From IMG/VR virus record IMGVR_UViG_3300044843_000942, positions 1 through 29,923 of that record: a stretch of 29,923 nt of DNA; one strand, 5' to 3'. Positions 23,011 to 29,470 of this stretch are shown piece by piece. The position numbers and the translations under genes were made by a program. Each line of letters opens with the position of its first letter. Within the stretch, counting starts at the first letter, position 1. Origin of the DNA: a virus. Under the pieces are notes generated by a model. That model ran no database searches. It saw only the letters and a program-made list of their open reading frames with translations, and was not told the origin of the DNA.

Positions 23011-26000
23011 TTACGCTCCAGGTGGAGGTGGGACTGGAGGTTCTTCTCCCGAACCCTTCTCTAATCCAGGAAGTCCTCCACCAGCATCTTGTCCTGGTAA
23101 AGCTCCCTCACTACCACCAGCCTCATTAGGATCTTTTTCTATTTCTGGAATTTCATCCTCTTCATCCAAGGCTCGTAAGGCATTCAAATCCATAGCCGCT
23201 AAAGACTCTTTCTCTTTTACAGCGATCGCACTTTGAATCGATTCTTTTCTCATCTTTCTAATTTCATCTTCAAACTCTAGACCCAAAGAACGATACAGCG
23301 TATGCAATGACGCACGTTTAGCGTCTCCTTCGCCTTGCGTTAAGGTTAACAAAGTATTAATATAATCACCAGCATCAAATAATGCCATATGATTCCAATC
23401 TACTTCGGGCACAATTAATTGCTTTTCTCCATGAGAATAATCATAAAATCCCTGGATCTTAGAAATAGGAGCGAAGATTTTTCTCTTTAACCAAGTAGAT
23501 AGCATGTTTCGGAATTGCATATAGCGTTGCTTTAATACATCCAAGGCCACACTACCATTAGCATAAGTGGTATCCGCGCCACCATCCATTAATACCGGCG
23601 GTACTTGTAACCCAACATAAATCTCTTTAATAATTTGGGTAATATCTCCAGAAATGTCATAAATGCCTTGACCATAACCCACTCGTTCTACCGCTACGCC
23701 AGAATGAGTAAAAATCTTAAAATCCTTATCATATTGAGCTTGCTCAAAGACATTGCGCCAGGCTTCTAGGTCGGCAAAGGTGGGGTGAAGGCCGTCGGCA
23801 GCGTCGGTGCCGATTTTGACCAGGGTGAGGGGGTTTACCATATTATCCGCCTGGGCGTACTTCGAATTCCCCTGCACCGTCACCTTCCCATTTCTTCTCG
23901 TCACAAACAATCCCGTCGGTACCTCAAAACACCACACCAAACCATGATAATTTACTTTGTTAAAAGAAGCGCCTTTTTGATTTTTACCGCTACCATTAAT
24001 TTTAGGTGTTAACCCTTTATTAGTATCAGACCATCGAATTACATATTCAGTACAAGTCTTTCTCTTGAAAGCTTGTAAAATAGGCACATATCCTAATTTA
24101 TAAACTAACTCATAAACATCATCTGCTAATTGTTTAGAGGCAGTAGAATACTTATAAGACGATTGCGAGTTATTTAATTTCTTTCTAGAACCATCACCAT
24201 CCAATAAAGCGTCTAAAATAATTTGCAATTTATCTGGAGATAAATCTAAAACAAATCTAGGAATTCGTTTGTTTTTAGAATCACACTTACCATCGATCCC
24301 AATAGTCTCAATTAAGTACTTATTGAGCAAATTATAATAAATAGTTCCGCTCCATTGTTCTTTGGGACAATGAGCCGAGAAGCCTCCGCCTTTAACTTTA
24401 ATGGAGGTAGATACTTTTTTATCGAAAATCTGAGCAAAATTTTCAATATTCTCTCTCATATTGCGATAATATAAAGATTGCGTTAATTGAGTAACTACCA
24501 CCCTATTTCTATGTTGATTGGTTTTTTTATTCAAACTACTATCAACACAACCCTCACTAATCACATTGCCAATAAATTTTAAATATACCTCAATCGGAAC
24601 TTGTTTATCAATGACTGTTACCGACTCTACATTATTACCGGCCCAATCAATAACATTATTAAATTTATAAGAATGTCCAACGGATAATTCTCGAGCTGGA
24701 ATTTTAGCATATCCCATTTCTTGATTGTTAATAATTGGATTGACCCACATTTTGTGATTGGGAGTAACTAAGCAATCTACTTTTTTACCTTGAAAATGAA
24801 TCATATCTCCATCATAGTGAGACATATGCATTTCAATAGGCGTATGATATTCCATGGCTTGAGTCTTAGGATTAACACAAGCAATTTTAATATCATCTTT
24901 CAAAGTTAATAACGATAATGATTGATCCTCATTGACAATGATGCCATTAATGTAATTATCTTTCTCTAATTGGTGTAAATATTTAAAGCCTTCTTCTGTT
25001 AAAATTTCAGTGTGCTCATCATAAGAATTAGCATATTGGACTGTGATTTTACCATTTCTTCTAGAAATAACTTTTTTATTGGTCGCAATATTCCATAATT
25101 TACCAGTATACTCATTAAGAGCAATAGTCGCACCACCAAATTTATTCTTGTGATCAAAAGAACAGACATATGGATGATTGCCATACTCAGTAGTCGACCA
25201 CATGACAATATATTCTGTCACTGATTTGTTATTGGTTTTAGTCGCAGTAGAAATACACAGATTCGGCGCAAACCCTAATTTAAATACTAATTCATATACA
25301 TCATCAGCTAATTGCTTAGAAATGGTAGAATATTTAAAACTAGTCGACTTATTTGCTACTCGTTCTGAGCCATCTCCTTTAACTAATGCCTGCAATAATG
25401 TATTCATTAATTCGGGAGTTAAATTTAATACCCATCGAGGCAAACATTTATGAGCCGATAAGGTATTTTGATTAGTACCAATTTCTTTTTTAAAATGGTC
25501 AACGAGATCTTTGCCATGAATCACTACTTGCCATTTTTCTTTGGGAGTATGAGCAGAATATCCAGAACCAATTACTTTAACAGTATGATTAGCCTTTTTA
25601 TTTAATAATTGGGCAAATACATCAAAAGACTCTCTCATCTCTTGATAACAATCACTAGAAGTTAATTGACTGACCGAGATAGACGCATCATGTCTATTAT
25701 TTTGATCATTAGCATAAATGCATCCTTCGGAGACCAAATAGCCTAATACTTTTAAGTATAATTCGGTTGGAATATGCTTGCCATTGACTACCACGGTGGC
25801 CGGATGGTCAGTATTATTAAATTGGACTTGAGAATTAAATTGATAATAGGATTTCTTTTCTAATAAAGAAGAGGCCATCACCTTTTGAAAGTTATTATCA
25901 GTTTTAGCTACATCTAACCAACTAGTTGGTAAAACTGCTAAATCTACTTTTTTACCAGTCACCGAAAATATTTGACCAGAATATTGCTCAATAGATAAAT

Positions 26001-27084
26001 TTTCAGGATAATCATAATTAACTTGGTTATTATCATCTACTAAGGCTAGTTTAATACGAGCTAGTTTATGATTGACTGTATTATTGACTTGTAAAAGGTC
26101 GGTGATTTTTTTAAAACCTTGATTGGTGAGAACTTCGGTGTCAGCGGAGTAGCACTCGCGTAACTTATCAAACAACATCAGCTGCCGGAAAATACACACC
26201 GGCAACCCCGTCCCTCGGATTTCATACGGACTAATTCTTCTCGCCAAATGAGAGACATGAAAATTATCTAAAGGAATATTCTCGCCACGTTTAACGGAAT
26301 TAATAATGTGACTATTTAATTGTTTTCTTTGCTCAATATCAGTAGGTCGATTAGAAAAGATAATTTTCTTTAAATTTTCATCCGGGCGTAACATAATGAT
26401 GGGCTCATTCGCCACTACAGTACGTTTGACAATCATATAATCTGGATTTTGAATTAATAACCGGCTCCATTTGCCACGACTTTCATCTAATTCTGAATAG
26501 ACGAAAGACTCTCCCAATAACCAATATTCTTGGGCAATTTGAACGCAGACATTCATTAAATCAATTTCTTCAATCATATCATTGAAGAATCTTTCAATTT
26601 CTTTATTGGGACAAGTAATATTTAATTTACTAATAGGATAAGTGCTATGCAAATTAATAGCATTATGGACAAAGGGATTTAGTGCATAAAAGCTGCGACA
26701 CCAAGCATTAATAGTGGCTCTATCTCGTGGTAAGTTTAAATTAGAATTCAACCATAATGGAGAATAAACTTCTGGAGATTGTTTAACAGTATCTCCGTTA
26801 CCACCACGATAGTTTCCTCCAGAAGAGCTAACTACTTGAGCAAATTTATTTTGACCAACTGAAGATACTACCCTTCCATTAACCGTACTACCATCTTCTG
26901 AGGCTGACGGGCCCGAACCATCACGAAAAAATCCTTGATTGACTTCATTTGAGATTCCATCTCGTCTAAACTGTGACACTGATTTTGCCATCAAAGCGCT
27001 AACTTGCGGTACATCAGATCGAGATGCTAAATATTGCTCCGATTTAGAAGGGCCATCCCAACGTGTTAATTTATTTTTAGCCAT
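23011..27084 (-). CDS. Portal protein precursor containing two tandem inteins
   Basis: 1357 residues, starting after ATGAGGATAC. The exteins are residues 1-310 and 1074-1357, joined as '...LFDKLRE-SKYAQADNM...' to give a 594-residue portal, a normal length. Portal-like segments include 'WCRSFYALNPFVHNAINLHS', 'CVQIAQEYWLLGESFVY', 'HLARRISPYEIRGTGLPV', 'IIKEIYVGLQVPPVLMDGGA' and 'LKQRYMQFRNMLSTWLKRKI'. The C-terminus is acidic then Pro/Gly-rich. The portal forms the ring at the unique capsid vertex through which the terminase pumps DNA. The inserted 763 residues must be removed by protein splicing. Coding around both outer junctions (about 23760-23930 and 26160-26240) is G+C-rich, unlike the rest. 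The gene follows the terminase after 55 bases. Confidence 0.88.
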   Translation of the reverse strand: MAKNKLTRWDGPSKSEQYLASRSDVPQVSALMAKSVSQFRRDGISNEVNQGFFRDGSGPSASEDGSTVNGRVVSSVGQNKFAQVVSSSGGNYRGGNGDTVKQSPEVYSPLWLNSNLNLPRDRATINAWCRSFYALNPFVHNAINLHSTYPISKLNITCPNKEIERFFNDMIEEIDLMNVCVQIAQEYWLLGESFVYSELDESRGKWSRLLIQNPDYMIVKRTVVANEPIIMLRPDENLKKIIFSNRPTDIEQRKQLNSHIINSVKRGENIPLDNFHVSHLARRISPYEIRGTGLPVCIFRQLMLFDKLRECYSADTEVLTNQGFKKITDLLQVNNTVNHKLARIKLALVDDNNQVNYDYPENLSIEQYSGQIFSVTGKKVDLAVLPTSWLDVAKTDNNFQKVMASSLLEKKSYYQFNSQVQFNNTDHPATVVVNGKHIPTELYLKVLGYLVSEGCIYANDQNNRHDASISVSQLTSSDCYQEMRESFDVFAQLLNKKANHTVKVIGSGYSAHTPKEKWQVVIHGKDLVDHFKKEIGTNQNTLSAHKCLPRWVLNLTPELMNTLLQALVKGDGSERVANKSTSFKYSTISKQLADDVYELVFKLGFAPNLCISTATKTNNKSVTEYIVMWSTTEYGNHPYVCSFDHKNKFGGATIALNEYTGKLWNIATNKKVISRRNGKITVQYANSYDEHTEILTEEGFKYLHQLEKDNYINGIIVNEDQSLSLLTLKDDIKIACVNPKTQAMEYHTPIEMHMSHYDGDMIHFQGKKVDCLVTPNHKMWVNPIINNQEMGYAKIPARELSVGHSYKFNNVIDWAGNNVESVTVIDKQVPIEVYLKFIGNVISEGCVDSSLNKKTNQHRNRVVVTQLTQSLYYRNMRENIENFAQIFDKKVSTSIKVKGGGFSAHCPKEQWSGTIYYNLLNKYLIETIGIDGKCDSKNKRIPRFVLDLSPDKLQIILDALLDGDGSRKKLNNSQSSYKYSTASKQLADDVYELVYKLGYVPILQAFKRKTCTEYVIRWSDTNKGLTPKINGSGKNQKGASFNKVNYHGLVWCFEVPTGLFVTRRNGKVTVQGNSKYAQADNMVNPLTLVKIGTDAADGLHPTFADLEAWRNVFEQAQYDKDFKIFTHSGVAVERVGYGQGIYDISGDITQIIKEIYVGLQVPPVLMDGGADTTYANGSVALDVLKQRYMQFRNMLSTWLKRKIFAPISKIQGFYDYSHGEKQLIVPEVDWNHMALFDAGDYINTLLTLTQGEGDAKRASLHTLYRSLGLEFEDEIRKMRKESIQSAIAVKEKESLAAMDLNALRALDEEDEIPEIEKDPNEAGGSEGALPGQDAGGGLPGLEKGSGEEPPVPPPPGA
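23866..25026 (-). mobile_element. Portal intein copy 2 (LAGLIDADG, splicing motifs largely intact)
   Basis: Residues 687-1073. Block A begins at Ser687 ('SYDEHTEILTEEGF'), block B is 'VDCLVTPNHKMWV' with the TxxH pair T774/H777, endonuclease motifs are 'FIGNVISEGC' and 'ILDALLDGDGS', block F is 'WCFEVPTGLFVTRRNGK' and block G is 'VTVQGN' before Ser1074. The final block has Gly rather than His before Asn, which other inteins also show. The last ~25 codons are G/C-ended and match the adjacent extein in composition. The nucleophile at position 1 is Ser, while copy 1 has Cys. Confidence 0.88.
25027..26154 (-). mobile_element. Portal intein copy 1 (LAGLIDADG, degenerate splicing motifs)
   Basis: Residues 311-686. 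Block A is 'CYSADTEVLTNQGFKKI' with Cys311. The block B position reads 'VDLAVLPTSWLDV', so the TxxH pair is lost (TPNH in copy 2 becomes LPTS). Endonuclease motifs are 'VLGYLVSEGC' and 'LLQALVKGDGS'; the second keeps the catalytic-position Asp but has Lys for the earlier Asp. Block F 'LWNIATNKKVISRRNGK' lacks the CFEVP core, and block G is 'ITVQYAN'. It aligns along its whole length with copy 2. Splicing ability is doubtful when alone. Confidence 0.85.
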
Positions 27085-27139: not shown

Positions 27140-29470
27140 TCAGAATTTACGAGAAATATAACCACCAGTTACTAATGGCTTATTCATATTAGAAAAATTA
27201 GATTTTTGCAAAATAGGATTATTATTAGTAAATCCCTTAGTAATGATAAATTTATATGCCAAATAGGCATTCAATAAGGCCATAAATCCGTCATTGGGAG
27301 TTCCGCCCTTGACATAATGGATTTGAGGATCCGCCCCCATTCGAGAAATAGAGGGCTTAATTTCCATACTACAACAATGATCAATTAACCAAGCAATTTT
27401 TTCATAGTCTCCAAAAGGAAACTTAATCATCCCATTCTTTAATTGTTCATATAATTCTCCAATATAATAATCTCTTTCAAAGACTAATTCTTTGGGAAAA
27501 GCATCTATACTATATTTGATATGATTATTGACTTTTGGATGAGCACGAGAGACAATATATTTGTCCCCATAAATTTGATGTAACGTTTGAGAAAAATCAT
27601 TAGAATATCCAATATCACCAATCGCTAAATTCACACCATATTGTCTAATAATTTGTTCAATCAGACCCTTTTTGCTTTCCGGATCGTTTCTTTTAAATTT
27701 AGTGGCAAATTCAATATGTAATAATCCTGGGCCTTTAGCCGATAACACCACTGCTGTACTATAGGATTGACCTTTAGATTTAGAATTTTCAATATCGGCT
27801 AATTGTTCTACGTCTGCTCTAGCACCATAATCGATACCTAAGACTACGATTTGTTGATCGGTACCATTTCGAGAAGGAGCAATACGAGCACTAAATTTAC
27901 GGTCATCTCCACATTTCTCTTTAATTTCTTCTGGAGTAATGGGACTAGAATCTCCTTGAAAGAATTCTCCCATAACTTCGTTCATGAAGACACGTTCAGT
28001 ATTAATAGGATGATTCCCCGGCATTTCATTATCCATATCTTCTCGACTAAACATAGGCATGTATAATTGATTGATATGGAACCCAACCATTTTGCAATCC
28101 GGATCATCTGGGTCTCGTAAGGCAGTCCATTTACCTCTTTCTGCCGCTTCTAATTTATTTTGCTCATGACCACAATGTGGGCATTTAACCATAAATCCAT
28201 AAATCCAAATATTCTTCCAATCATCTGATCCAGGAGTATATAGAGGAAAATATTCTTTACATTTTCCACATCCTAAATAATAATATTGTTGAGAAGAAGT
28301 TTGCCACATTTTATGGAAATCAGAGCCTTTTCTTCTAGGAGTTCCAAAATAAACTTGAACTCCTTTAGACGGTTTACCATATTTGGCTGTTGTTAAAGTT
28401 TTAAGAGAATTTCCAATGGCAATACTAGTAGTTTTCTGGCAATTATGAACTATCGGACCACCTTGATGCTTTCCATTTTTATTTGGCGCCAAAATAAAAT
28501 TATGATTATCTTCTACTTCAATATCATAGACTGTTTTTGTCTCATTCGAATATTCAATGCTATCTAAAACTAACCAACTAACTTTTTTATAAGTATCATC
28601 GTAGCTTTTAATTAATGTTCCAATAGGAATATCTTTTATTTCTTTCCAGCCAAATTCAGTCAGAAACCGATGATTATCAGTACATGAAATTTTTCTTCCA
28701 CTTAATTTAATATTAACTAATTTTTTATCTCCACGATTAAAGACATTAACAATTTTTTTGTATTCAAAATTTTCATTTTCTAAATTAAAAGTTAAAACTA
28801 ATGGAACATTTTGATTATTGGTAAATAAATCATATAATTGACCAATAGATTTTTTACCTTGATTAGTTGCTATTTTTTGATTATACGGAAAACATTCATC
28901 AAAGAAGATAATATCCGCACTGCGTCCCATTACTCTATCACCATCTAAACCCACAGACTCAATCCATAAATGATTACCACCTACAAATTGCTTAAAATGT
29001 AACGAATCATTAGTGGAAGTAGATTGATCCAATAACGATTGCATATAAGCTTTGGGCTTTAATGACTTATTATTGGGATCTGATGGTAATGGGACCGAAG
29101 AAGAAATAATTTGATTTAATTTGGTTTTAGAGTAGGCTGCCGCTAATTCTAATTGGGGAAAGGCATGAATAATTCGAACCGGAGGCTTGCTGCCGGTGCC
29201 AAAAATGCCGGAGCCCATGAAGTACATTTCTAGGGCGGAGGCCATGGTGGTGGCGCCCACTTGTCTACCTTTCACGATAATGATCGGCTTCGAATTTGGC
29301 TCCAACGCCTTAATCCCAATATACCGATAAATCTCCGCAAAGGGTCGATATCCATTCCCTCGCAATCTAAAAGGCTTGCCATCTAATGTCAGGTTAGATT
29401 CCACAAAGACTACCGGATCTAACATCATCAATTGATTCTTTAATTTTAAAAATAAACTATCATCGGCCAT
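27140..29470 (-). CDS. Terminase large subunit precursor with mini-intein
   Basis: 776 residues. The ATPase Walker A-type loop is 'VKGRQVGATTMAS' (66-78) and Walker B is 'ADIIFFDE' (185-192), immediately followed by the intein (193-343). After splicing the protein is 625 residues, usual for the family. A zinc-finger insert with C401-xx-C404 and C430-xx-C433 recalls gpA-type terminases. The RNase H-like nuclease has D547 ('VLGIDYGA'), D619 ('LAIGDIGYSND') and D727 ('TPNDGFMALLNAYLAY'). It powers DNA packaging and cuts the concatemer at the portal. The start overlaps the end of the upstream endonuclease gene and has no ribosome binding site of its own, so it may depend on coupling. Codons at about 29160-29350 are markedly G+C-rich. 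Confidence 0.9.
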   Translation of the reverse strand: MADDSLFLKLKNQLMMLDPVVFVESNLTLDGKPFRLRGNGYRPFAEIYRYIGIKALEPNSKPIIIVKGRQVGATTMASALEMYFMGSGIFGTGSKPPVRIIHAFPQLELAAAYSKTKLNQIISSSVPLPSDPNNKSLKPKAYMQSLLDQSTSTNDSLHFKQFVGGNHLWIESVGLDGDRVMGRSADIIFFDECFPYNQKIATNQGKKSIGQLYDLFTNNQNVPLVLTFNLENENFEYKKIVNVFNRGDKKLVNIKLSGRKISCTDNHRFLTEFGWKEIKDIPIGTLIKSYDDTYKKVSWLVLDSIEYSNETKTVYDIEVEDNHNFILAPNKNGKHQGGPIVHNCQKTTSIAIGNSLKTLTTAKYGKPSKGVQVYFGTPRRKGSDFHKMWQTSSQQYYYLGCGKCKEYFPLYTPGSDDWKNIWIYGFMVKCPHCGHEQNKLEAAERGKWTALRDPDDPDCKMVGFHINQLYMPMFSREDMDNEMPGNHPINTERVFMNEVMGEFFQGDSSPITPEEIKEKCGDDRKFSARIAPSRNGTDQQIVVLGIDYGARADVEQLADIENSKSKGQSYSTAVVLSAKGPGLLHIEFATKFKRNDPESKKGLIEQIIRQYGVNLAIGDIGYSNDFSQTLHQIYGDKYIVSRAHPKVNNHIKYSIDAFPKELVFERDYYIGELYEQLKNGMIKFPFGDYEKIAWLIDHCCSMEIKPSISRMGADPQIHYVKGGTPNDGFMALLNAYLAYKFIITKGFTNNNPILQKSNFSNMNKPLVTGGYISRKF
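28442..28894 (-). mobile_element. Terminase mini-intein at Walker B
   Basis: 151 residues from Cys193 to Asn343, followed by Cys344. Block A 'CFPYNQKIATNQG', block B 'ISCTDNHRFLTEFGW' with T264 and H267, block F 'VYDIEVEDNHNFIL' with D316 and H323, and block G 'GGPIVHN'. All splicing residues are present. There is no endonuclease domain, so it cannot home by itself. The insertion point splits the catalytic acidic pair from the rest of the motif ('FFDE / CQKTT'), a known favoured intein site in terminases. Confidence 0.92.

Follow-up and report, generated by a model that had tools for sequence, protein, structure and literature searches.

The portal protein gene of a bacterial virus (IMG/VR record IMGVR_UViG_3300044843_000942, positions 1 to 29,923; this whole stretch of 29,923 nucleotides is referred to as the window) contains two homologous inteins fused head to tail. 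Inteins are normally self-sufficient. In this pair, by comparison with related inteins, the losses of catalytic residues are complementary, each copy being without parts kept by the other. A second virus (IMGVR_UViG_3300013133_003734; L052) carries this tandem as well, with matching losses, and the disarmed splicing domain of the upstream copy, judged from its substitution pattern, is constrained by purifying selection rather than decaying. The segment Cys311-Asn1073 (763 residues) probably acts as one composite intein made from two. This possibility had been raised as an alternative in an earlier sequence-only reading of the window, and is favoured by the complementary losses and their recurrence in L052.

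The portal gene occupies positions 23011-27084 on the minus strand, as do all portal features listed below. It is one open reading frame of 1357 amino acids, open along its full length, and is predicted to yield a protein of 594 residues once 763 are excised. Both extein halves match the portal family phrog_16240 (7.8e-29 and 2.2e-19); the portal of phage G is a distant tblastn match, and GenBank phages yielded weak matches only. Copy 1 (residues 311-686, 376 amino acids; 25027-26154) and copy 2 (residues 687-1073, 387 amino acids; 23866-25026) can be aligned over their entire length (37% identity, E 2e-72), with zero extein between them. They meet at Asn686/Ser687 (25024-25029), and the C-terminal splice junction is formed by Asn1073 and the +1 residue Ser1074 (23863-23868). 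The boundaries and lengths proposed in the sequence-only reading are reproduced exactly, as are its whole-length homology of the two copies and its description of a tandem of paralogues sharing one junction residue. Each copy has two LAGLIDADG motifs with acidic residues, as in homing endonucleases of this family: VLGYLVSEG (25723-25749) and LQALVKGDG (25369-25395; Pfam LAGLIDADG_3) in copy 1, and FIGNVISEG (24550-24576) and LDALLDGDG (24190-24216; Pfam LAGLIDADG_3) in copy 2. As a single open reading frame encodes the tandem, it is not a split intein, which would comprise two polypeptides.

The extent of catalytic loss in each copy is apparent from 66 non-redundant single relatives of the portal inteins. 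Residue 1 is Cys in all 66, as invariant as the block-B His and the Cys at position 4 of block F (F:4 Cys), while the block-B Thr is found in 60 and replaced by Ser in six. Copy 1 retains its Cys1 (Cys311, the N-terminal splice nucleophile, 26152-26154), which is also present in copy 1 of L052. The remainder of its splicing domain is disarmed: block-B Thr and His have become Leu and Ser (L385 and S388, LPTS in place of TPNH; 25921-25932), and Asn665 (25090-25092) stands at the F:4 Cys position. Copy 2 has the reverse pattern, with block B (TPNH, T774 and H777; 24754-24765), F:4 Cys (Cys1052; 23929-23931) and block G intact, and Cys1 replaced by Ser. The sequence-only reading had assigned block A, two LAGLIDADG-type motifs and block G to each copy; these motifs are indeed present in both, but the description omits that copy 1 is without functional blocks B and F.

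Neither copy has a full residue set of its own. Taken alone as a class 1 intein, copy 1 has the required Cys or Ser at residue 1 (C311) and lacks the block-B TxxH (LPTS in the window, LPSS in L052); the +1 residue that follows it in the precursor is Ser in the window and Ala in L052. For copy 2 alone as a class 1 intein, residue 1 is an admissible Ser in the window but Ala, which is not admissible, in L052. Taken as a class 3 intein, copy 2 has the F:4 Cys, whereas its residue 1 is devoid of a nucleophile only in L052 (Ala; Ser in the window). Of the other class 3 residues, the variant Met that may replace block-B Trp is present, but the G:5 Thr is not, with Gln occupying the position before the penultimate residue. 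Across Cys311-Asn1073, by contrast, the class 1 set is complete, comprising C311, T774/H777, N1073 and S1074, and L052 has the same set. A few single relatives end in Gln rather than Asn, namely L019 and L020 (an intein site designated portal site b) and L077 (portal site a, the site of the tandem), with ends reading VQQQ/S and SIQFQ/C (the slash marks the splice junction).

L052 derives from a separate data set, is collinear with the window, and carries the same abutting tandem at the same portal site. Its copy 1 reads LPSS at block B, carries Asn at F:4 and ends in QYAN as does that of the window, and its copy 2 starts with Ala. Common to both tandems are the Cys at the outer N-junction and, from copy 2, TxxH, F:4 Cys, Asn and the +1 Ser. 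With Ala at its inner junction, the L052 precursor offers no +1 nucleophile to copy 1 and none at residue 1 to copy 2; what has been conserved is thus not a pair of ordinary inteins spliced in turn. Searches with junction patterns, a copy 1 pattern, a copy 1 alignment and a copy 1 end pattern, metagenome contigs lying outside their scope, found no third tandem. The 18 stretches returned by one junction-pattern search held no new intein except on the contig of L052 itself, and a scan of genome contigs recovered distant inteins and no abutting pair.

Copy 1 is maintained rather than decaying despite its lost catalytic residues. Between the two tandems, its synonymous sites are saturated and non-synonymous change is limited, the disarmed Hint domain included: the proportions of synonymous (pS) and non-synonymous (pN) differences are 0.81 and 0.32 in the N-terminal part of Hint, and 0.78 and 0.20 in the F-G part. 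For comparison, the portal exteins of the two tandems are 86% identical (pN 0.09, pS 0.69). An AlphaFold2 (AF2) model predicts that copy 1 keeps an intact Hint plus endonuclease fold, with a mean predicted local distance difference test score (pLDDT) of 89 and a predicted template modelling score (pTM) of 0.90. Over residues 1-375, the model resembles complete endonuclease-bearing inteins (Z 26.3 to 2cw7 and 25.9 to 7qsu). Given that the underlying alignment contained functional relatives, the model indicates that the sequence is compatible with this fold, rather than constituting an observation of it. A mixed alignment of tandems and single inteins was left unused for folding, the singles having spread over both copies. 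Separately, 14 consecutive residues at the pseudo block B (portal residues 373-386; FSVTGKKVDLAVLP) are identical in both tandems despite the missing catalytic residues.

The insertion point is one that this intein family occupies repeatedly. Nineteen related portal loci are uninterrupted here, reading [KR]E/[SC]K-x-[AV]-Q-A (e.g. LRE/SKFAQ, the slash marking the insertion point), and the tandem is a precise in-frame insertion at a site empty in these relatives. In many related phages, a single member of the family is inserted precisely here in the portal (site a), which provides the single-intein alleles that the sequence-only reading had proposed to look for. Since site a is normally either empty or filled by one intein, the window represents two inteins at a single-intein site. 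Other portals carry an intein approximately 40 residues downstream (site b), with sites a and b both filled in L002, L009 and L011. A third portal insertion site of the family is seen in L022 (4998-6188; RYFYD/TNPIV), and open reading frame +3760 of L095 contains two complete inteins of the family, 37 residues apart.

In a tree of 53 inteins, those of site a fall into two main clades, alpha and beta, to which copies 1 and 2 respectively belong. Copy 1 of the window and copy 1 of L052 are sisters (100/100). The copy 2s, although both in the beta clade, are not sisters: that of the window groups with L053 (95/88), and that of L052 with L011, L051, L056 and L058 (100/99). The two copy 2s are 72% identical over their first 20 residues and 41% identical over the remainder, and a loop deletion common to both follows directly. 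The conserved portion corresponds to the block A of copy 2 (A2, residues 687-707; 24964-25026). The simplest history compatible with these sequences would be a single joining of an alpha and a beta intein, after which recombination exchanged the downstream portion of copy 2 for that of another beta allele; the joining itself probably occurred by homing into an occupied site. Third-position GC rises at the outer intein borders and the adjoining exteins (23866-23940 and 26095-26250 in the window), a rise absent at the inner junction and weaker in L052. This pattern fits co-conversion of the outer edges with the exteins, though it is only suggestive.

The segments that may together form one intein were assessed with a profile built from 15 single site-a inteins. 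Residues 1 to i of copy 1 were joined to copy 2 after its residue j, and each chimera was ranked by its best-single-domain score, a test of alignment only. The best junctions fall at equivalent positions within the loop that follows block A (i 30 and j 22 in the window; i 26 and j 19 in L052), where the joined piece outscores copy 2 itself by 33 and 25 bits, respectively. Among 14 control alpha/beta pairs, the best summed gain is 0.0-0.2 bits. This junction defines A1, the block A of copy 1 with the following loop (residues 311-339; 26068-26154), as the proposed N-terminal piece of a composite catalytic Hint. The loop remnants are likewise complementary, with copy 1 retaining the first part (LLQVNNTVN) and copy 2 the second (NYINGIIV...).

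These observations suggest how a composite intein might have arisen and how it might splice. An alpha-clade and a beta-clade intein of one portal site would have been joined head to tail, and each would then have lost what the other supplies. Copy 1 would provide Cys311 and block A. The Thr and His of block B would come from copy 2, as would the F:4 Cys and the C-terminal Asn, and both sides of the inner junction would be disarmed. In the proposed reaction, block A of copy 1 would dock with its Cys311 in the Hint of copy 2, allowing T774 and H777 to activate the N-junction. The acyl group would move to Ser1074, possibly aided by Cys1052, followed by cyclisation of Asn1073. The two portal halves (310 and 284 residues) would thereby be joined into the 594-residue portal, with release of one 763-residue intein. 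More tentatively, and falling slightly short of an even call, the composite may be a strand-exchanged nested intein. Its catalytic Hint would consist of block A from copy 1 and blocks B, F and G from copy 2, and the block-A loop would hold a circularly permuted, non-catalytic Hint, assembled from block A of copy 2 and what remains of copy 1, with its own endonuclease; two selfish elements would have become obligately interdependent through complementary losses. Block A of copy 2 possibly docks in the non-catalytic Hint of copy 1. A very short N-terminal piece and the exchange of segments both have precedent: 4 of 14 engineered split inteins tested with an N-terminal piece of 11-12 amino acids splice (PMC3620165), and Hint segments can swap between inteins (PMC8175363).

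Several points weigh against the composite interpretation. The profile gain comes partly from Cys1 and the loop, and the test presumes that single inteins are the right yardstick. Since A2 is conserved between the tandems, the Hint of copy 2 may continue to use its own block A for folding. Both tandems also retain Asn686, even though a purely internal junction needs no Asn. Only two tandems are known, and a fold of the whole tandem, predicted by AF2 from a two-row alignment, was discarded as useless (pLDDT 42). The splicing itself, with its docking, chemistry and order of events, is inferred.

The strongest rival is sequential splicing, in which copy 2 exits first, through Ser687 or a class-3-like use of its F:4 Cys, and copy 1 follows with Ser1074 as its +1 residue. 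Ser687 is usable as residue 1 in the window, and copy 1 still has Cys1 and its terminal Asn. Furthermore, profile comparison places closest, among solved structures, the class 3 intein AceL NrdHF (6zgq, 2.6e-5), which splices well with Ala1 and an F:4 Cys (PMC7891396), so copy 2 might work without Cys1. Against this, copy 1 has lost residues that are conserved in its 66 relatives (the F:4 Cys and, bar the six Ser substitutions for Thr, the block-B Thr/His), and the residue equivalent to 687 is Ala in L052. The sequence-only reading had placed copy 2 before copy 1 in just this order, which these two observations leave unsupported. In addition, the class 3 Thr before the penultimate residue is replaced by Gln in copy 2, and a class 3 motif grafted onto a class 1 intein led mainly to cleavage (PMC7664689). 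Sequential splicing is on balance unlikely. A composite could also function without strand exchange, if each Hint folds with its own block A and the domains pack such that Cys311 reacts in an active site shared with copy 2. Conservation of both block A segments between the tandems (72% identity for A2, 57% for A1) is consistent with this arrangement, but it requires a new shared active site and leaves unexplained why A1 and its loop complete copy 2 in the profile test; it appears a little less likely again than sequential splicing.

Two further explanations treat the tandem as non-functional or artefactual. If it were a decaying double insertion, copy 1 would be a dying parasite and the portal of this contig would no longer be made in working form. 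The loss of catalytic residues from copy 1 would be expected, but a second virus shows these losses too, the frames are open in both tandems, and both copy 1 and the exteins combine saturated synonymous change with limited non-synonymous change, making decay quite improbable. The tandem might instead be a chimera, with assembly having merged two single-intein alleles present in a mixed population, given that single alpha and beta alleles occur at this site in other phages. The same precise junction on a separate contig from another data set makes this very unlikely, and neither copy resembles a functional single allele; the chimera is barely credible. The composite intein spanning Cys311 to Asn1073 remains the preferred reading.

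Known systems share individual features with this proposed composite. LAGLIDADG class 1 inteins (PI-PkoII 2cw7, TliVMA 7qsu and PI-SceI) combine a Hint and a LAGLIDADG domain in the same fold and share the N-terminal Cys, the TxxH, the terminal Asn and the +1 Ser, but in the tandem these residues are distributed over two fused inteins, each short of some. Two inteins per host protein are found in haloarchaeal MCM-a and MCM-d (PMC10643990), as in the portals of L002, L009 and L011; those inteins are complete and lie at separate sites with extein between, whereas the tandem copies abut and are both incomplete. Engineered S1 split inteins (PMC3620165) similarly use a block-A-sized N-terminal piece to complete the rest of Hint, as proposed here, though the piece in the tandem is in the same chain, linked via approximately 370 residues of another intein. 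The AceL NrdHF class 3 split intein (6zgq; PMC7891396) resembles copy 2 in its PNH and Met in block B, its F:4 Cys and, for L052, its Ala1. It differs in its length of 146 amino acids, its usual split site and its G:5 Thr, and Cys1 is invariant among the 66 singles of the portal family. Domain-swapped dimers (Npu DnaE; Pyrococcus horikoshii PolII, PMC8175363) likewise exchange Hint segments between two intein units, as proposed here, but do so between molecules, with identical copies and other breakpoints, and the PolII form is thought to be inactive. Group II twintrons (e.g. PMC4649490) are an RNA analogue in which one self-splicing element is joined to another, but these are RNA introns comprising two complete elements that are spliced sequentially.

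Neighbouring inteins in one gene were encountered in the open-access literature, but an abutting, interdependent pair was not, subscription literature being outside that search. The tandem would represent a division of labour at the protein level following duplication or fusion, with two inteins made interdependent by complementary catalytic losses, and a counterpart to intron-in-intron elements. It indicates a route by which selfish elements may stack at one site, and shows a catalytically dead Hint domain, that of copy 1, kept under selection. It is also a natural setting in which to ask if two fused inteins can build a single active site between them, and a working composite could inspire splicing tools that carry a large domain as an insert.

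A further intein is present elsewhere in the window. The terminase large subunit gene (27140-29470) contains a mini-intein of 151 amino acids without an endonuclease (28442-28894, minus strand; FFDE/C...VHN/C). It is of a different type from the portal inteins, and the same spot holds a longer insertion in L052 and none in L015.

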